Made by a program: the position numbers and the translations under genes. Positions 22,034-30,704 of a DNA stretch of 33,092 nucleotides are shown here, piece by piece. The stretch is from Aquabacterium sp. GTDB lineage: Bacteria > Pseudomonadota > Gammaproteobacteria > Burkholderiales > Burkholderiaceae_C. The notes beneath the pieces were generated by a model, which was not told where the DNA came from, ran no database searches, and saw nothing but the letters and a program-made list of their open reading frames with translations. Positions within the stretch are counted from its first letter, which is position 1. Each line of letters starts with the position of its first letter. The DNA lies in contig JAGOKC010000019.1 in the NCBI GenBank assembly GCA_017994835.1, forward strand, positions 1-33,092, written 5' to 3'.

Positions 22034-23458
22034 ATGGGCGCACGCCACCCCCTTCCCTACGCCTTTGCCAAGGCCCACAACCTGCTGCTCGAGCAAGACG
22101 GCGAGCGCGCCACGCTGTGGGCCAGCCTGAATGTCTCGCACGCCGCACTCTCCGAGGTGCTGCGCCTGTACGCCGTCAACCGCATCGAGCACGACCCGCC
22201 AGATACCCTGGCGCAGCGCATCGCGGCGGCTTATTCGGGGGGTGAGGGCAGTGCGGCCGCTGTGGTCGGCGAGGTCGAAAACGCAGTCGATCTGTCGCGC
22301 ATGCTGCAAGAGTTGCCCGCCGTCGAAGACCTGCTCGAATCCAGCAACGACGCGCCCATCATCCGCATGCTCAATGCGCTGCTGACGCAGGCGACCAAGG
22401 ACGGCGCGTCCGACATCCACATCGAGCCCTACGAGCGTTCGTCGGCCGTGCGCTTTCGGGTGGACGGCACGCTGCGCGAGGTGGTGCAGCCCAACAAGGC
22501 CCTGCACGCCGCGCTGATCTCGCGCCTGAAGATCATGGCCGAGCTGGACATCTCCGAAAAGCGCCTGCCGCAAGACGGCCGCATCAGCCTGCGCATCGGT
22601 GGCCGCGCGGTGGACGTGCGGGTCTCGACCTTGCCGTCGGCGCATGGCGAGCGCGCCGTGCTGCGGATCCTGGACAAGGGCGACGCCAACAAGTTCACCC
22701 TCGAAGCACTGGGCATGAGCGGCGAGTCGCTCGACAAGTTCAAGCGCCTGCTGCGTCAGCCCCACGGCATCGTGCTGGTCACCGGCCCCACCGGCTCGGG
22801 CAAGACCACCACGCTGTACGCGGGCCTGAGCACGGTCGATGCCTCCACCACCAATGTGCTGACCGTGGAAGACCCGGTCGAGTACGAGCTGGCGGGCATC
22901 GGTCAGACCCAGGTCAACGCCAAGATCGACCTGACCTTTGCCAAGGCCCTGCGCGCCATCCTGCGCCAGGACCCGGACGTCATCATGATCGGTGAAATCC
23001 GCGACTTCGAAACCGCGCAGATCGCCGTGCAGGCCTCGCTGACGGGTCACCTGGTGTTGGCCACGCTGCACACCAACGACGCACCCAGCGCCGTCACCCG
23101 CCTGACCGACATGGGCATCGAGCCTTTCCTGCTGTCCTCCTCTCTGTTGGGTGTGTTGGGCCAGCGCCTGGTGCGCAAGCTGTGTGTGCATTGCAAGCGC
23201 GTGGACGAGGCAGGCCGCTGGCACCCGGTGGGTTGCCCCGAATGCGGCATGAGCGGCTACAAGGGCCGCACCGGCGTGTACGAGCTGATGGTGGCCGACG
23301 ACGAGATCCGGGGTCTGATTCATGCCAAGGCCGCCGAGGCCCAGCTTTTCGAGGTGGCCCAGAAGGCGGGCATGCAGACCATGCGCGACGACGGCGACCG
23401 GCTGGTGGCCGAGGGCGTGACCTCGCTCGAAGAGGTCTTGCGGGTCACCCGCGAGTGA
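22034..23458 (+). CDS. gspE: Type II secretion ATPase GspE
   Basis: The cytoplasmic hexameric ATPase that powers pseudopilus assembly. The 474 residues contain a short N-terminal domain (about 1-100) and the catalytic core: [21 protein letters not shown], Walker [10 protein letters not shown] (251-259, K257), the Asp box [10 protein letters not shown], Walker [13 protein letters not shown] and the His box [10 protein letters not shown]. The zinc module has cysteines C384, C387, C401 and C404, with only 13 residues between the pairs; the better known GspE proteins have nearly 30. The N-terminal domain is also compact. GGGAG precedes the ATG. Confidence 0.97.
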
Positions 23459-23505
23459 TGGGTCGCAGGATGAACCGCGTGATGGACCAAGAATAAAGGC
23501 GCCCG

Positions 23506-24726
23506 ATGCCGGCTTACCGTTTCGAAGCGCTCAATGCCGCAGGCAAGACCGTCAATGGTCTGGTCGAGGCCGACACGCCCAAGGCCGCCCGCACCCAGCT
23601 GCGCGGCCAGCAACTGGTGCCCCTCAAGGTGGACCCGGTCACCCACAGCGAAGGCGAGGCTTCACGCGCGGGCCAGATGTTCACGCGCCGCGTGTTCAAT
23701 GCCACGGCACTGACCATCTGGACACGGCAGCTTTCCGGGCTGGTGGTGGCGGGTTTGCCGCTGGAGCGGGCGCTCACAGCCTTGTCGGATGAAGCCGAAG
23801 ACCCGCGTCAACGCGAGCTGGTGTCGCACCTGCGTGCCGAGGTGAACGCTGGCTCGACCTTCGCACGCGCCCTGGGCAGTGCCCCGCGTGAGTTCGATGA
23901 GGTGTACCGAGGCGTGGTGGCGGCCGGTGAGCAAAGCGGCCAGCTTGGCAGCGTGCTCGACAAGCTCGCCAACGACCTGGAAGAGCAACAGGCGTTGACC
24001 TCCAAGCTCATTGGGGCCACGCTCTACCCGGCCATCGTGTCCGTGTTTGCGGTCGTCATCGTGGTGGCCCTGCTGGTGTTCGTGGTGCCGCAGGTGGCCC
24101 AGGTGTTCTCCAGCAGCAAGCGCGCCTTGCCCATGCTCACCCAGTTCATGCTGGGCTTGAGTGCTTTCATGCGGCAATGGGGCTGGTTGCTGGGCCTGGC
24201 ACTGATCGGGGGCAGCGCAGGCCTGGTGTGGGCGCGTCGTTTGCCGGACTTCCGGCTGCGTTTTGACGCCTTCTGGCTGACCCTGCCCGTCATCGGTCGC
24301 CTGGCCAAGGGCTACAACGCCGCGCGCTTTGCCGGCACCCTGGCCATGCTGGCGGGCTCGGGCGTGCCCATCCTCAAGGCCTTGCAGGCCGCCGCCGAAA
24401 CCCTCTCGAACCGCGCCATGCGCGCCGACGCCATGGATTGCCTCGACCAGGTGCGCGAAGGCGCGCCGCTGGCCTCGGCGCTGGCCGCCAAGAAACGCTT
24501 TCCCGGCCTGCTGGCGATGTTCGCTCGCCTGGGCGAGCAGACCGGTCAGCTGCCCGTGATGCTGCAGCGCGCTGCCAACCAGCTCAGCGCCGAGGTCACG
24601 CGCAAGGCGCTGGCCATCGCCACCATCCTCGAGCCCTTGCTGATCGTGGCGATGGGCCTGGTGGTCATGCTCATCGTCATGTCGGTGATGCTGCCCATCA
24701 TGCAGATGAACACCTGGGTCAAGTGA
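23506..24726 (+). CDS. gspF: Type II secretion inner-membrane protein GspF
   Basis: The polytopic core of the assembly platform. The 406 residues have the family's two related cytoplasmic helical domains (about 65-190 and 270-390, with LSGLVVAGLPLERAL and AMLAGSGVPILKAL at matching places) and three membrane helices (near 165-195, 215-235 and 370-400). The N terminus MPAYRFEALNAAGK is typical. AAAGG precedes the ATG, 47 bases after gspE. It closes the gsp gene set. GspC is on the other strand and no prepilin peptidase (GspO) is in the window. Confidence 0.97.
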   Translation: MPAYRFEALNAAGKTVNGLVEADTPKAARTQLRGQQLVPLKVDPVTHSEGEASRAGQMFTRRVFNATALTIWTRQLSGLVVAGLPLERALTALSDEAEDPRQRELVSHLRAEVNAGSTFARALGSAPREFDEVYRGVVAAGEQSGQLGSVLDKLANDLEEQQALTSKLIGATLYPAIVSVFAVVIVVALLVFVVPQVAQVFSSSKRALPMLTQFMLGLSAFMRQWGWLLGLALIGGSAGLVWARRLPDFRLRFDAFWLTLPVIGRLAKGYNAARFAGTLAMLAGSGVPILKALQAAAETLSNRAMRADAMDCLDQVREGAPLASALAAKKRFPGLLAMFARLGEQTGQLPVMLQRAANQLSAEVTRKALAIATILEPLLIVAMGLVVMLIVMSVMLPIMQMNTWVK

Positions 24727-24730
24727 ACAC

Positions 24731-25639
24731 ATGGCAGCCAGCTTGAGCGGCAAACTGGTGGTCGCGATCTCCTCGCGCGCCTTGTTCGACTTTGAAGATG
24801 AGAACCGCCTGTTTGAAGGTGCTGACGACCGCGCCTACATGGCGTTGCAGCTCGACAAGGTCGATGAGCCTGCGCGGCCCGGCGTGGCCTTCTCGCTGGT
24901 GCGCAAGCTGCTGGCCTTCAACACGCCCGACGAGGCGCGGGTCGAGGTCGTGATCCTCTCGCGCAACGACCCTGTTTCCGGCATGCGCGTGTTCCGCTCG
25001 GCACGCCACTATGGCCTGCCCATCGAGCGCGGCGTGTTCACGCGTGGCGAAAGTCCCTGGCGTTACCTGCGGCCCTTGCAGGCCCACCTGTTCCTGTCTG
25101 CCAACGAGGCCGATGTGCGCTCGGCCCTGGCCGCCGGCGTGCCGGCCGCGCGCGTGCTGCCCCATGCCGCCCGCGCCGGAGAGGCCCATCCCCACGAGGT
25201 CCGCATCGCGTTTGACGGTGACGCCGTGCTGTTCTCGGACGAAGCCGAGCAGGTCTTTCAGCGCGGTGGGCTGGACGCCTTCCAGGCCCACGAGGTTGCG
25301 CTGGCGCAGCAGCCCTTGTCTGACGGACCTTTCAAACCTCTGCTTCAGGCGCTGCACACCTTGCAGCAGCATGCGATCAACGGGGGGGCCAACGGCATGC
25401 GCATCCGCACTGCACTGGTCACTGCGCGAGGGGCTCCGGCGCATGAGCGCGCCATCCGCACCCTCATGAACTGGGGCATTGACGTGCATGAAGCGCTGTT
25501 CCTGGGCGGTCTGCCCAAGGGCGAATTTTTGCGCGAGTTCGAGCCCGATTTTTTCTTTGACGACCAGACCGGCCACGTCAACAACGCCGCGCCCCACGTG
25601 CCCTCCGGGCATGTGGCGTCGGGGGTCACCAACGCCTGA
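24731..25639 (+). CDS. Cytosolic 5'-nucleotidase (PF06189-type)
   Basis: A 302-residue protein of the bacterial branch of the cytosolic 5'-nucleotidase I family, which removes phosphate from nucleoside monophosphates. The N terminus VVAISSRALFDFEDENRLFE, then VVILSRNDPVSGMRVFRSA, LFLSANEADVRSAL, the aspartate-rich IAFDGDAVLFSDEAE (catalytic region) and the end pattern HEALFLGGLPKGEFL are family landmarks. No signal peptide, so cytoplasmic. It starts four bases after the gspF stop and is presumably transcribed with the secretion genes, though no functional link is evident. Its stop codon directly abuts the stop of the convergent MOSC gene. Substrate cannot be told. Confidence 0.9.
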   Translation: MAASLSGKLVVAISSRALFDFEDENRLFEGADDRAYMALQLDKVDEPARPGVAFSLVRKLLAFNTPDEARVEVVILSRNDPVSGMRVFRSARHYGLPIERGVFTRGESPWRYLRPLQAHLFLSANEADVRSALAAGVPAARVLPHAARAGEAHPHEVRIAFDGDAVLFSDEAEQVFQRGGLDAFQAHEVALAQQPLSDGPFKPLLQALHTLQQHAINGGANGMRIRTALVTARGAPAHERAIRTLMNWGIDVHEALFLGGLPKGEFLREFEPDFFFDDQTGHVNNAAPHVPSGHVASGVTNA

Positions 25640-26251
25640 TTAATCCAGGTGGCGGCGGTTCATCTTGGCCCTGAACAGCGCCTGGATGCTCACTTCGCGC
25701 GCCCCCGCGATCAATTCGTAGGACTCTCCGGCGGCGATGTGGCCGGGCTGGATCACCGACAGGTAAAAACCGCAATACCCTGACTGCGCCATCATCTTGG
25801 TGGCCTGTTTGAAGCCCATGATGGCGTCGAACTTGAAGCACGGCTTGCGCGGTTCGCTGATGGCCAGCACGCAGTCGGCAAAGCGCAATCGGTCACCGAC
25901 GCAGGCATCGGCCTCCAGCAGGCCGGTCAGGGTCAGGTTTTCGCCCAGCATGCCGTGCGGCATGGCTTCGCCCCAGGGCTGCAGACCCGCCTGGGCGCGC
26001 ACGGTCTGCCAGAAAGCATAGTGTTCGTGCGGGTAGGCGTACACCGCCTTGTTCAGGCCGCCATGCACCGTCAGGTCGGCCTGCTCGTCGCCGTCCAGTC
26101 CCAGTTGCTGCACCTTGATGCGCTGTGGATCGGCCAGGGTGCTCACCGCCCGTTTGCCGATGCCACTGAGGATGCGACGCCCGTCGATGTCGATGGGCGC
26201 GGCGGTCGCGGTGTTGACGGACAGGATCTGACGCGACAAAAGGCTGGACAT
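25640..26251 (-). CDS. MOSC domain protein, YiiM-like
   Basis: A 203-residue soluble protein with a MOSC domain, the fold that holds molybdenum cofactor in sulfur-carrier and N-oxide-reducing proteins. The pattern GLDGDEQADLTVHGGLNKAVYAY, GENLTLTGLLE, VGDRLRF and SEPRKPCFKFD is that of YiiM-type proteins, with the cysteine of RKPCFKF at the usual cofactor-ligand position. YiiM of E. coli is known to act on N-hydroxylated bases such as 6-hydroxylaminopurine. ATG 26251 is chosen; a TTG at 26293 would add 14 residues. It lies 81 bases downstream of the ModC-like gene on the same strand, so the three minus-strand genes may be one transcript with a molybdenum theme. Confidence 0.88.
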   Translation of the reverse strand: MSSLLSRQILSVNTATAAPIDIDGRRILSGIGKRAVSTLADPQRIKVQQLGLDGDEQADLTVHGGLNKAVYAYPHEHYAFWQTVRAQAGLQPWGEAMPHGMLGENLTLTGLLEADACVGDRLRFADCVLAISEPRKPCFKFDAIMGFKQATKMMAQSGYCGFYLSVIQPGHIAAGESYELIAGAREVSIQALFRAKMNRRHLD

Positions 26252-26332
26252 GGCAGAGGGCACAACAAACAAGGGGGCGGTCGCTCGGGGCAACGCAGCG
26301 TGGACTCGCAGTATGCCCTCAGGGCAACTGCG

Positions 26333-27739
26333 TCAGTGCCACGCGGTCACCGTGGTCGCCATGGCCTTGAAGCTCACCACACAGGCCTTGCCAGGCGCCC
26401 AGTCCATCTGCTGAATCGCCTTGCGTGTCAGCAAGGCCCACACCGTGGGCGCACCTTGATCAACGTTCCCTTGTAGGCCGAGTGCCTGGTCCAGCTCGAT
26501 CCCGATGGCCCCATAGGTGCCGTGTTCACCGGCCAGCATCACCTGGGTGATGCGTCCGTTCAGATGGTTGAGGCTGCTCGTGTCGGCGGGTGGCTTCTTG
26601 TGCAGGCTCAGGTCACGTGCGCGCAGCTTCAGGCGCACCTTGCTGCCCACCGGATGCAGCATGGCGGGCACGGTGATGCGCTGGCCGCCCACATCCACCT
26701 CGCTGAGCAGCCAGCTCAGGTCATGACGCCGCACCACGGCTTCGAGCACGCTGCCGGCATCGGTGCCCTCCAGAAAGGTGGCCAGGGACACGTCGGACAG
26801 AACCTGGGCAACCGGTCCGGCGCTGGCGGTGCGGCCTTCGTGCAGCACCAGCACATCGTCGGCCAGGCGCACCACTTCGCTCATGCGCGGGCTCACCAGC
26901 ACCATCGGCAAACGCCAACGCCGGGGGATCTCGGCCAGCAAATCCAGCAGTTCGTCGTGTTCGTGGTGGGGCACCTCGCCCAGCGGGTTGTCCAGCAACA
27001 GAGCTTGTGGGCGAGACAGCAAGGCCCGGCCCAGGCCGACGCGCATCCGCTGCGTGGCGGTGAGCTGTGCGGGACGGCGGGGCAGCAAGGTGGACAGCTC
27101 CAGCCAGGACACGATTTCGTTGAAATCGGGGGCGTCGTCACTGACCGGGCCACGTGGCAGGGCGTAGCGCAGGTTGCCGCGCACGCTCAGGTGGGCAAAC
27201 AGGTGGGCATGCGCGTCCAGCCAGGCCAGATGTCGCAGGTGCGCGGGCTGGTTGATGCGCGCGGCGCTGTCATACAGGGTGTCCTGCCCCAGGGTGATGC
27301 GGCCGCCGCGCGCGGGGGTCATGCCCGCGATGGCCTGCAACAGCGCGCTCTGGGTGCTGGGCTCACGGCCCACCAGCGCGCAGACCCGGCCCGGTGCCAC
27401 ACGAAACTGGGCGCGGATGTCGAGTCCGGGATGCTGCAGGCGCAACTCCACACTCAGCGCACGGGCCGAGGTGGGCGCCGGTGCGGGCCGGGTTGGTGCC
27501 AGAGGTGGAGCCGGCAGCTGCAGGGCCAGTGTCCACCAACTGCGCCAGCGCGAGGCACCCAGGGTGTGGGCCAGGGGGCGGCTCATGGGGGTCAGCGCCT
27601 CGCTGCGCTGCGCCATCCACATCAGCAGGGCCAGCACGGCCATCAGGCCCGCAGCGACCACATTGCCCAGCAGCGGCAGATTGAGCTGACCATCGGACAG
27701 GGTCGGCAACCAGGGCCAGGCTTGCAGCAGGGCGTCCAT
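26333..27739 (-). CDS. Degenerate ModC-like ABC protein fused to a ModB permease fragment
   Basis: A 468-residue protein in three parts. Residues 20-43 form one membrane helix, followed at 54-80 by a permease coupling loop (AHTLGASRWRSWWTLAL, the EAA-loop pattern of ModB). A proline-rich linker leads to an ABC ATPase domain (about 94-320), and a TOBE/Mop domain ends the protein (about 355-465). The ABC domain aligns with ModC through LFAHLSVRGNLRY and GRALLSRPQALLLD, but all catalytic motifs are altered: Walker A reads GREPSTQS (lysine replaced by Q130), the Q-loop Gln is A176, the signature is LTATQ, the catalytic Glu after Walker B is N251, and the H-loop His is P284. ATP hydrolysis is not expected. 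The frame is intact. ATG 27739 has AAAGG six bases upstream; ATG 27745 would overlap the upstream stop as ATGA. Confidence 0.82.
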   Translation of the reverse strand: MDALLQAWPWLPTLSDGQLNLPLLGNVVAAGLMAVLALLMWMAQRSEALTPMSRPLAHTLGASRWRSWWTLALQLPAPPLAPTRPAPAPTSARALSVELRLQHPGLDIRAQFRVAPGRVCALVGREPSTQSALLQAIAGMTPARGGRITLGQDTLYDSAARINQPAHLRHLAWLDAHAHLFAHLSVRGNLRYALPRGPVSDDAPDFNEIVSWLELSTLLPRRPAQLTATQRMRVGLGRALLSRPQALLLDNPLGEVPHHEHDELLDLLAEIPRRWRLPMVLVSPRMSEVVRLADDVLVLHEGRTASAGPVAQVLSDVSLATFLEGTDAGSVLEAVVRRHDLSWLLSEVDVGGQRITVPAMLHPVGSKVRLKLRARDLSLHKKPPADTSSLNHLNGRITQVMLAGEHGTYGAIGIELDQALGLQGNVDQGAPTVWALLTRKAIQQMDWAPGKACVVSFKAMATTVTAWH

Positions 27740-27741
27740 CG

Positions 27742-28545
27742 TCATCCTTTCGGGCTTTGCCAGCCGGGGCGACTGGCTTTGACGGCGCTTTGGGCCAGTG
27801 GCCATTGCAACCAGTTCACCAGCAGCTTGGCACCTGGGTGCCGCGAATGGAAGGCGCACGCGATCTGGGCCTCCAGCACCATTTTCGGGCCACCGGCCAT
27901 CCAGATCTTGCGGGATTCGCCCTGCGGTGGGCTGGCCTGCCATTGCGCCCGCGTCATGAGGCGATAGCTGGGCAGCCGCGCACCGGTCTGCACACTGGCG
28001 GCCATGCTCAACAGGGCGCGCAACTGGCCGCCACTGAGCTGATGGGCCAGGGCTTCCAGGGCCGAGTCGGCTTCGAGTGGATGCCAGCTCGCCGCACCAG
28101 CACGGCAGGCCGCCAGCACTTGCAGCAGGGCGCGTCCCGCATCGGTCTGCCCACGGATGCCTGCCACATCTTCAGCGGGCCCGAGCAGCAGCACGTCGGT
28201 GCGTGCCACCGTTTTGCGGTCGAAGATCAGGCCCTGCTGAACCAGCGCATCGGCGCGCGGGTGCGACAGAAACATGCCAGCGTCGATGCCGCCCTGCTCC
28301 AGCGCGTTGAGCACCTGACGCGTGCCCATGGCCTCGAAGCGCGCGGTCCACCCCAGGTCTCGGCGCATGGCCGACTGCCAGCGCCCCGTCAGGCCGGTGC
28401 TGATCAACAACGGATCGGCCCCGATGCGGGGGCTGTCGGCGCGCGCCGGCACCTTGCCCTGGGCGTGGCTGGCCAGTGGGCAAGCCAGCAGGCTCAGACC
28501 GGGAAAGGTCGTGGTCAGGAAAGTGCGACGGTTGGCAGCGGACAT
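27742..28545 (-). CDS. TupA-like periplasmic binding protein with altered ligand residues
   Basis: A 267-residue exported protein. The N terminus has a twin-arginine-like signal (NRRTFLT at 5-11, hydrophobic stretch, then SHAQ). The rest follows the register of tungstate-binding TupA proteins: FEAMGTRQVLNALEQGGID, LSHPRADALVQQGLIFDRKTV, DVLLLGPAEDVAGIRG, and HPGAKLLVNWLQWPLAQ near the end. The segments that hold the oxyanion in TupA are not conserved: the N-terminal TTT-S type loop reads ISTGLTGRW, the RGDDSGT segment reads SWHPLEADSA, and the GMG segment reads SVQTGAR. A normal tungstate or molybdate site is therefore doubtful. It ends directly at the start of the ModC-like gene. The family placement is my judgement from pattern, without a search. 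Confidence 0.72.
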   Translation of the reverse strand: MSAANRRTFLTTTFPGLSLLACPLASHAQGKVPARADSPRIGADPLLISTGLTGRWQSAMRRDLGWTARFEAMGTRQVLNALEQGGIDAGMFLSHPRADALVQQGLIFDRKTVARTDVLLLGPAEDVAGIRGQTDAGRALLQVLAACRAGAASWHPLEADSALEALAHQLSGGQLRALLSMAASVQTGARLPSYRLMTRAQWQASPPQGESRKIWMAGGPKMVLEAQIACAFHSRHPGAKLLVNWLQWPLAQSAVKASRPGWQSPKG

Positions 28546-28661
28546 GGTGGGAAGACGGAAAACGGCCCCGAACAGGGGCGCGCAAGCGTGTCAGGATACA
28601 AAAAAGCAGAACCGATGGGCACGCTTTTCTGGGGGGGTAAGGGTCTGTCCTTGGCTGGGAT

Positions 28662-28687
28662 CAAAAACGGGGCTGTCCAAAAACGGG
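28662..28687 (+). promoter_or_regulatory. Two direct repeats CAAAAACGGG at the pckG promoter
   Basis: CAAAAACGGG occurs at 28662-28671 and again at 28678-28687, sixteen bases apart. They overlap the position of the -35 box of the candidate promoter, so a regulator bound here would act directly on RNA polymerase. Confidence 0.45.
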
Positions 28688-28702
28688 TGAGTTGATTAAA
28701 AT
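28674..28702 (+). promoter_or_regulatory. Candidate pckG promoter
   Basis: TAAAAT (28697-28702) serves as -10, with TGTCCA (28674-28679) at 17-base spacing as a weak -35. It would start transcription near 28709 and give a leader of about 139 bases containing the hairpin at 28777. Confidence 0.4.
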
Positions 28703-28776
28703 GGAGGGTTCCTGCTGAGTCTTTAGCGTGTCTGGTGCATGGGAGCCAGATGGAGCCCCAAGTGGCCGTGCGAAGG

Positions 28777-28837
28777 CAGGGTGTCGAGAGTGTTGTGGCA
28801 ACCGCAACGTTCTCGAGACCCTGTTTTTTTATTTTTT
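28777..28837 (+). terminator. Intrinsic-terminator-like hairpin in the pckG leader
   Basis: CAGGGT-G-TCGAGAGTGTTG (28777-28795) pairs with CAACGTTCTCGA-G-ACCCTG (28805-28823): eighteen pairs, two of them G-U, with one G/G mismatch and a nine-base loop. Seven T follow (28824-28830), then A and six more T. The ribosome site GGAGTGAG begins at 28838 and the pckG ATG is at 28848. No gene reads into this region from the left, so the hairpin can act only on the pckG leader transcript. Confidence 0.8.
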
Positions 28838-28847
28838 GGAGTGAGTC

Positions 28848-30704
28848 ATGACTGCTGTTGCACAGGTGAACGCACCTGCTTATGTCAAAAATGCCAAGCT
28901 GATTGCCTGGGTGGCCGAAATCGCCGCCCTGACCCAGCCCAAGGACATCGTCTGGTGCGACGGTTCCACCGAAGAATACGACCGCCTGTGCGCCCAGCTC
29001 GTGGTCTCTGGTGCGTTCAAGAAGCTCAACCCCGAGCTGCGCCCCAACTCCTACCTGGCCTGGACTCACCCGTCCGACGTGGCCCGCGTCGAAGACCGCA
29101 CCTTCATCTGCGCCGAGCGCAAGGAAGACGCCGGCCCCACCAACAACTGGTGTGAGCCCGCCGAAATGCGCGCCAAGCTGCAAACAGGCGAAAGCGCCCT
29201 GTTCAAGGGCTGCATGAAGGGCCGCACGATGTACGTGATCCCCTTCTCGATGGGCCCACTGGGCTCCGACATCGCCCACATCGGCGTCGAGCTGTCCGAC
29301 TCGGCCTATGTCGCCGTCAACATGAAGCTCATGACCCGCATGGGCAAGGGCGTGATCGACGTGCTGGGCACCGATGGCGAGTTCGTGCCCTGCGTGCACA
29401 CTGTGGGTGCCCCGCTGGAAGCCGGTCAGCAAGATGTGGCCTGGCCTTGCAACCCCGATACCAAGTACATCGTCCACTACCCCACGACCCGCGAAATCTG
29501 GTCCTACGGTTCGGGCTACGGCGGCAACGCGCTGCTGGGCAAGAAGTGCTTCGCGCTGCGCATCGCCTCCACCATGGGCCGCGACCAGGGCTGGCTGGCC
29601 GAGCACATGCTGCTCTTGGGCGTGACCAACCCCGAAGGCCAGAAGTACCACGTGGCCGCCGCTTTCCCCTCGGCCTGTGGCAAGACCAACTTCTCCATGC
29701 TGATCCCGCCCGAGGGCTACAACGGCTGGAAGGTCACCACCATCGGTGACGACATCGCCTGGATCAAGCCCGGTGCCGACGGCAAGCTGTACGCCATCAA
29801 CCCCGAAGCCGGTTACTTCGGCGTGGCCCCTGGCACCAACACGCTGACCAACTTCAACTGCATGAAGTCGCTCGACCGTGACGTGATCTTCACGAACGTG
29901 GCCCTGACCGACGACGGCGACGTGTGGTGGGAGTCGATGACCGACGAGCTGCCCGCTCACCTGGTTGACTGGCAGGGCAACGACTGGACCCCGGCGATTG
30001 CCAAGGAAAAGGGCACCAAGGCCGCCCACCCCAACGCTCGCTTCACCGTGGCTGCCACCAACAACCCGGCCCTCGACCCCGAGTGGGACAACCCCGCTGG
30101 CGTGCCGATCGACGCCTTCATCTTCGGTGGCCGTCGCTCCACGACCGTGCCGCTGGTGACCGAGGCCCGTGACTGGACCGAAGGCGTTTACATGGCCGCC
30201 ACCATGGGCTCCGAAACCACCGCCGCCGCGTTTGGCGCGCAAGGTGTCGTGCGCCGCGATCCGTTCGCCATGCTGCCCTTCATGGGCTACAACATGAGCG
30301 ACTACTTCCAGCACTGGCTGAACCTGGGCAACAAGCTGGCCGCTTCCGGTGCCCAGTTGCCCAAGATCTACTGCGTGAACTGGTTCCGCAAGGGTGCCGA
30401 CGGCAAGTTCGTGTGGCCTGGCTACAGCGAGAACATGCGCGTGCTGGAGTGGATGCTGGGTCGCCTGCAAGGCAAGGCCCACGGCGTGGAAAACGCCTTT
30501 GGCGTCAGCCCCACCTACGAAGACATCAACTGGAACGGTCTGAACTTCACCAAGGACCAGTTCCAGTCCGTCATCGGCATCGACGCTGCAGCCTGGACGC
30601 AAGAGCTCAAGCTGCACGACGAGCTGTTCACCCAGTTGTCGTACAACCTGCCGGCCGAAATGCCCGCCACCAAGGCCAAGCTGGCCCAGCGTCTGGCTGC
30701 CTGA
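28848..30704 (+). CDS. pckG: Phosphoenolpyruvate carboxykinase (GTP)
   Basis: Converts oxaloacetate and GTP to phosphoenolpyruvate, CO2 and GDP, the entry step of gluconeogenesis in the cytoplasm. The 618 residues are full length for the GTP-dependent class. Visible motifs are the substrate-binding [31 protein letters not shown] (metal and substrate region), the kinase-1 loop [22 protein letters not shown], and guanine-pocket aromatic stretches in [24 protein letters not shown] precedes the ATG. Codon use is strongly biased to C/G endings as in highly expressed genes of this window. Expression is likely controlled at its leader hairpin and perhaps through the direct repeats upstream. A strong terminator follows. 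Confidence 0.98.

Follow-up and report, generated by a model that had tools for sequence, protein, structure and literature searches.

A degenerate copy of the molybdate-importer ATPase ModC, fused to a remnant of the permease ModB, was found in the window (the whole 33,092-nucleotide stretch of Aquabacterium sp. DNA that was analysed). Its catalytic residues are lost, its frame is open and its dN/dS lies well below 1, as in an ABC pseudo-ATPase maintained by selection. Comparison with orthologs across the genus indicates that the protein is very probably a retained pseudoenzyme under selection, with loss of ATPase activity predicted. The gene and its degenerate motifs are located as follows.

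26333..27739, minus strand: pseudo-ATPase of 468 aa (P0001), a ModB remnant fused to a degenerate ModC
27512..27676, minus strand: ModB remnant with a hydrophobic helix (residues 22-40) and an EAA-loop-like LAHTLGASRWRSWWTLALQLP (residues 56-76), placed by alignment to a full ModB of the same genus
27347..27370, minus strand: degenerate Walker A GREPSTQS, Lys to Gln (residues 124-131)
27191..27223, minus strand: degenerate Q-loop WLDAHAHLFAH (residues 173-183)
27050..27064, minus strand: degenerate ABC signature LTATQ (residues 226-230)
26969..27001, minus strand: degenerate Walker B and D-loop, LLLDNP LGEVP (residues 247-252 and 253-257)
26882..26896, minus strand: degenerate H-loop VSPRM, His to Pro (residues 282-286)

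The gene starts at an ATG (27739) two bases past the stop of the upstream binding-protein gene, with a ribosome-binding-like AAAGGA directly 5' of it, and the stop codon occupies 26335-26333. With no internal stop and with the motif residues located, the original prediction of a ModC-like gene that has lost its motifs within an intact frame was confirmed. The nearest family was TIGR02142 (NCBIfam, ModC; E 1.7e-73), with a score of 247.9 bits, under the cut-off of 285.05; none of the 36 orthologs described below passed this cut-off, the top score being 269.1 bits. Among solved structures, the best matches by sequence were 3D31 and 2ONK (ModC / ModBC importers). The genome of the window also encodes, at another locus (L002 / G000:C56), a canonical modABC whose ModC has its motifs intact. 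A gene on the opposite strand was set aside, as homology and codon-position G+C favour the minus strand; the antisense frame was stop-free in 16 of the 36 orthologs and held 1-7 stops in the remaining 20, and its openness was not decisive. An assembly (MAG) error was also set aside, the fused architecture recurring in four assemblies.

ABC ATPase domains are highly conserved enzymes. The window protein lacks the Walker A Lys, the Q-loop Gln, LSGGQ, the Walker B Glu, and the H-loop His, and its D-loop Asp is also gone, a loss beyond those first named. None of the 36 orthologs retained the Q-loop Gln or the signature GG. In place of the Walker B Glu, 30 have Asp, five Asn, and one Gln; the D-loop Asp and the H-loop His are likewise lost from all, with Pro in 33 of the D-loops and in 35 of the H-loops (Asp in the remaining H-loop). 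These Pro substitutions are uniform replacements, not scatter. The Walker A Lys was kept in 28 orthologs and was replaced by Gln in eight, which form the window clade (G000, the genome of the window, with G307, G319, and G326) and a second clade (G241, G305, G311, and G321), both with the same Lys-to-Gln change. Chance or sequencing error does not account for the motif losses, since all of them except that of the Lys are seen in 36/36 orthologs and that of the Lys in 8/36. The claim that five independent catalytic sites had changed is correct in that all five are absent, but four of the losses are genus-wide and older than the window copy. With the Lys kept in 28/36, ATP binding may persist in most orthologs.

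The Walker B Asp was kept in 32/36 orthologs; it was changed at the three loci without a binding-protein (SBP) gene (L077, L078, and L079), to Arg in G300 and G306 and to Phe in G302. Members of the second Lys-less clade (L074, L075, L076, and L080) read GRVENGQR or GRLENGQR at Walker A and retained a full ModB.

The genus was taken as GTDB Aquabacterium (42 genomes), and an ortholog was found at a common locus in 36 of these (best E below 1e-120). The search tally for the genus was 39/42, a count that includes G310, G317, and G334, in which a weaker, canonical-type match alone was obtained; these three together with G323, G325, and G331 are the six genomes without pseudo-ModC. With the window protein as query (E 1e-60), the only hits beyond the genus among 299 family genomes were in three sister genomes of two genera, all with ModC motifs intact. 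A profile search of 399 order genomes (E 1e-75) yielded the window protein at 672.6 bits and two others at about 260 bits (L115 and L116), both of which were intact ModCs, and no relative was found among viral contigs. In the ModC tree, all 36 orthologs formed one clade (100/100), joined to the three sisters by a long branch of 2.08 changes per site (100/100), a join at which the tool warned of long branches meeting. The window clade and the second Lys-less clade were each recovered at 100/100. The nearest relative of the second clade, G314, keeps the Lys (100/99), and the window clade sits amid Lys-keeping groups whose mutual order the tree does not settle. The Walker A Lys was lost twice, in separate clades.

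The ModC frame was open in 36/36 orthologs, with the alignment beginning within the first ten residues; a TGA found in two longer matches (G299 and G324), which start at window residues 58-59, lies ahead of ModC. The dN/dS, determined by Nei-Gojobori, was 0.112-0.174 in the window clade (six pairs; NBD 0.105-0.187, ModB remnant 0.14-0.25, C-terminal part 0.065-0.182) and 0.045-0.125 in eight other genus pairs, and the intact sister pair gave 0.127. Ten species pairs were picked as close and carrying both copies, some sharing a genome so that not all are independent; with orthology of the canonical ModC pairs assumed and the NBD/C-terminus split set at 60% of the alignment, the pseudo copy had a lower dN/dS than the intact ModC paralogue in nine of them. 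The exception was the window's own pair, G000/G307 (pseudo 0.159 vs canonical 0.096). Among the 27 genomes with both copies, mean pairwise identity was 0.616 in the NBD and 0.676 in the TOBE region of the pseudo copy, compared to 0.702 and 0.558 in the canonical copy, indicating a shift in constraint, with the C-terminal TOBE and no longer the ATPase as the more conserved part.

A recent pseudogene was set aside on the open frames and the dN/dS values, and retention of a pseudo-ATPase, as opposed to fresh decay of a gene, is strongly supported by 36 open frames at one syntenic locus and dN/dS of 0.045-0.174. The losses recur in 36/36 orthologs (Lys in 8/36), a check that the original prediction had asked for. 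Intact Walker motifs in close relatives and relaxed selection had been named there as signs of simple decay. The first is found in part, since the Walker A Lys survives in 28/36 relatives and the other motifs in none; as for the second, selection is not relaxed relative to the paralogue in 9/10 pairs, with weaker constraint in the window's pair.

Slow decay, in which a molybdate importer made redundant by the canonical ModABC that most genomes encode elsewhere erodes piecewise and the copies are remnants awaiting loss, would accommodate the lineage-specific losses (the SBP in three genomes, modB-modC in G323 and G325, most of ModB in the window clade, and the Lys in two clades), the ModC over the family cut-off elsewhere in 33/42 genomes, and the weaker constraint on the window pair than on its canonical ModC. 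Neutral decay does not give the pattern of open frames, dN/dS below that of the canonical ModC in 9/10 pairs, uniform replacement residues, and a conserved TOBE loop missing from the sisters, and this explanation is considered improbable.

The pseudo-ATPase gene lies between two further genes of the locus.

27742..28545, minus strand: TupA-like periplasmic binding protein, with a Tat-like start read by eye and TTTS absent
25640..26251, minus strand: MOSC-domain protein, with the ATG start assigned by eye; its ORF begins at TTG 26293

Synteny was compared at 42 loci plus the window, and the common order was pckA (divergent), SBP, modB, modC, and MOSC. Of the 36 loci with pseudo-ModC, 29 have all four genes, four (the window clade) have the ModB remnant fused, and three (G300, G302, and G306) lack the SBP gene, with modB directly after the pckA region and pseudo-ModC and MOSC kept. 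The original prediction had asked whether the same two neighbours recur, which holds for MOSC, beside pseudo-ModC in 36/36, but not for the binding protein, absent in 3/36; two other genomes without modB-modC, G323 and G325, keep the binding protein and MOSC in place (L121, 3552-4343 and 2896-3501; L122). In the MOSC tree, which did not recover the genus as one group, these two genomes fell amid pseudo-ModC carriers (82/87, in a group also holding the window clade), and by this placement their lack of modB-modC is probably a secondary loss. G317, which has no pseudo-ModC, carries MOSC and a TupA-like gene; MOSC alone was found on the G310 contig, and no MOSC match was obtained in G331 and G334 (82% and 53% complete).

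In the sister G108, the order was pckA, a TupA-like gene, a canonical-type ModA, ModB, intact ModC, and MOSC, from which it is probable that the canonical ModA disappeared in the genus while the TupA-like protein stayed; at the pseudo-ModC loci, SBP and modB lie too close together by their coordinates for a canonical ModA gene to fit. The SBP profile matched the TupA structures 5MY5, 3MUQ, and 3LR1 (E 1.4e-14, 8.4e-13, and 2e-10). TTTS, the tungstate motif of TupA according to PMC4139814, was found in none of 36 aligned SBP rows (G108, G317, and G323 included) and was missing in 33/33 pseudo-ModC loci having an SBP. The SRGD..SGTH segment was replaced in 35/35 genus rows, with partial likeness in G317 and G108. 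The binding protein at 27742-28545 has a Tat-like NRRTFL start and a possible lipobox LLAC, which reads LLAA in G307, G319, and G326.

MOSC proteins act with the molybdenum cofactor. The pseudo-ModC might serve the co-encoded MOSC protein as a scaffold or regulator without itself being an anion sensor, and MOSC does adjoin pseudo-ModC at 36/36 loci, as it adjoins the intact ModC of the three sisters. However, MOSC persists without pseudo-ModC in G310, G317, G323, and G325 and so does not need it, which leaves this role unlikely. A link to Moco biosynthesis through co-occurrence with moaC could not be discriminated, as moaC was present in 42/42 genomes.

Residues 1 to about 80 of the window protein are a ModB permease remnant, a feature beyond the original prediction. 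The ModB stretch aligned to this remnant contains the EAA loop and a single membrane helix, and hydropathy indicated a single helix at residues 22-40 (peak 2.13). The same remnant was found in G307, G319, and G326, with only 72-81 ModB residues aligned in the four window-clade genomes, while the other 32 orthologs adjoin a near-full-length ModB. The structure model, weak outside the NBD (mean pLDDT 62.9) and no basis for a docking claim, placed helices at residues 21-48, 53-59, and 62-73 with low confidence. The modelled NBD (about residues 91-310, block pLDDT 70-92) keeps the ABC fold, and its structure matches were led by GlcV and CysA, with 3D31 and 2ONK among the best 50. The EAA loop is the docking site of the permease on the ATPase. 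From the helix and EAA loop kept in cis, we infer that a docked, membrane-attached ABC domain may still matter, whereas the pore would not.

Transport is unlikely in the window clade: of ModB only a membrane helix and the EAA loop are left, which make no pore, a motor is missing, and the binding protein is altered. In species with a full ModB, the locus could still encode a transporter, its SBP/ModB channel gated without hydrolysis or by a borrowed NBD and the pseudo-ModC acting as a plug. SBP, ModB, and pseudo-ModC occur together at 29/36 loci, the molybdate permease model PRK09421 matches the ModB of L051 (E 5.5e-53, below cut-off), and ModB dN/dS was 0.055-0.35 in eight genus pairs. Set against these are the reduction of ModB to a single hydrophobic helix in the window clade, the absence of TTTS from every SBP of the pseudo-ModC loci, and the lack of space for a canonical ModA, and the chance that transport continues is judged to be rather small.

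A mixed complex with the canonical ModC/ModB, in which the pseudo-ModC tunes or inhibits the active importer, was also considered. Precedents exist in the well-known asymmetric ABC dimers, in which one site is degenerate (PMC7756269), and the EAA remnant could compete for docking. However, pseudo-ModC is present without any ModC over the cut-off in G309, G318, and G326 (94-98% complete), and the two copies in the window's genome share only 33% identity. These three fairly complete genomes speak against an obligate partner of canonical ModC and make a partner role unlikely in general; such a complex has only a slight probability.

The C-terminal part of the protein carries two features.

26336..26767, minus strand: TOBE/Mop-type region (about residues 325-468), the most conserved part
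26504-26539, minus strand: genus-specific loop MLAGEHGTYGAI in the TOBE region, absent from the three sisters

A recognisable TOBE/Mop domain had been described for the window protein. The C-terminal region is TOBE-like, with a sub-threshold PF03459 (TOBE) score (18.5 bits, cut-off 22.3); of two proteins from the same genus, L046 scored below (20.1) and L051 above (30.8) the cut-off. The loop MLAG..G.YGA in this region is conserved in the genus. Tungstate in Tub is held by the side chains of Ser4, Ser40, and Lys60 together with backbone atoms (PMC11980592). At the corresponding type-2 pocket positions, the 36 pseudo-ModCs have Ser in 32, Ser in 19 (Ala in 15, Thr in 2), and Lys in 30, compared to 30, 28, and 30 in 30 canonical ModCs, so that the pseudo copies show some erosion of the pocket. 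The window protein kept the pocket-like Ser (DTSSLN) and Lys (SFKAM), and the Ser40-like position is Ala throughout the window clade. Anion binding by this pocket is plausible, and sensing of molybdate or tungstate via TOBE is compatible with the constraint shift and the mostly kept Ser and Lys. A TOBE-based role as a molybdate/tungstate sensor or buffer is tentatively put forward at somewhat under even chances.

The explanation we favour, also held with less than even confidence, is that a pseudo-ATPase derived from the ModC of a molybdate-type importer has been maintained genus-wide and may now be a membrane-tethered, non-hydrolytic scaffold whose TOBE region senses or buffers molybdate/tungstate. 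Its loss and selection steps are drawn from sequence comparison, and its functional steps by inference. At or near the base of the genus, an importer adjoining pckA would have lost its canonical ModA, and its ModC the Q-loop Gln, the signature, the Walker B Glu, the D-loop, and the H-loop. Purifying selection then acted on the altered ModC, most strongly on its C-terminal TOBE. Later, the Walker A Lys was lost twice, and in the window clade the permease was cut to one membrane helix and the EAA coupling loop and fused to the pseudo-ATPase. Such a protein would no longer hydrolyse ATP or drive transport; its ABC domain would be a dimerising scaffold docked at the membrane via the EAA loop of ModB (provided in trans by most species and in cis here), and its TOBE pair would bind molybdate/tungstate or a similar anion and act as its cytosolic reporter or buffer, perhaps on behalf of the MOSC protein encoded alongside.

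Several data count against this explanation. The pocket Lys is replaced in 6/36 orthologs, the Ser40-like Ser is present in only 19/36, and the window TOBE falls below the Pfam threshold. The locus is dispensable, as G323 and G325 have no modB-modC and three other genomes have no SBP gene, and dN/dS in the window pair exceeds that of its canonical ModC. An extended form of the favoured explanation, that a complete ABC importer became, inside a single genus, a non-transporting membrane receptor with intermediate stages preserved, is possible but doubtful. The binding protein, without its known anion motif, and the permease, as a helix and EAA loop holding the ATPase, would be parts of this receptor, and the ATPase domain would be a rigid holder for an oxyanion-sensing TOBE pair.

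Compared to known systems, the protein resembles ModC / ModBC importers (3D31 and 2ONK) in its ABC domain, TOBE region, and best profile (TIGR02142), and differs in its lost ATPase-cycle motifs, the lack of a full permease in the window clade, and the sub-cut-off score. ABC exporters with a degenerate site likewise have lost catalytic residues in a retained NBD, but one of their two sites is active, whereas here all NBD copies of a presumed homodimer are degenerate and importer-derived; degenerate ABC cases usually keep one working site per transporter (PMC7756269). The type-2 pocket Ser and Lys are mostly kept as in the TOBE/molbindin binders Mop, ModG, ModE, and Tub, from which the window TOBE differs in being attached to a dead ABC domain and a membrane helix (PMC11980592). 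The co-encoded SBP matches TupA by profile (E 1.4e-14 at best), but without TTTS and with the SRGD..SGTH segment replaced in the genus. In open-access literature at the level of titles and abstract starts, with subscription papers mostly uncovered, neither an importer NBD with all motifs lost nor an Aquabacterium ModC variant was found.

A presumed homodimeric importer ATPase has thus lost nearly its whole motif set, yet is under purifying selection across a genus, and the stages are preserved as intact sisters, lost catalysis, lost Walker A, and lost permease. The data suggest that a broken pump has turned into something else, perhaps a membrane-bound sensor, and they make the use of an ABC domain without ATP hydrolysis a testable question. 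Labelling such genes automatically as molybdate importers would be misleading.

No ModE-type palindrome was found in the window and no Rfam elements in 25500-29000, and these searches gave no support for a link of the locus to Mo regulation. Positions 22034-25639 of the window hold type IV pilus-like genes (pilB-, pilC-like, named by eye) and a further gene, at 24731-25639, which adjoins the locus in most genus members. In the sister genus g60 (L082, 2-1770 and 1647-2636), an intact modABC-MOSC follows formate dehydrogenase-like and fdhD-like genes, as read by eye, a molybdo/tungstoenzyme context.
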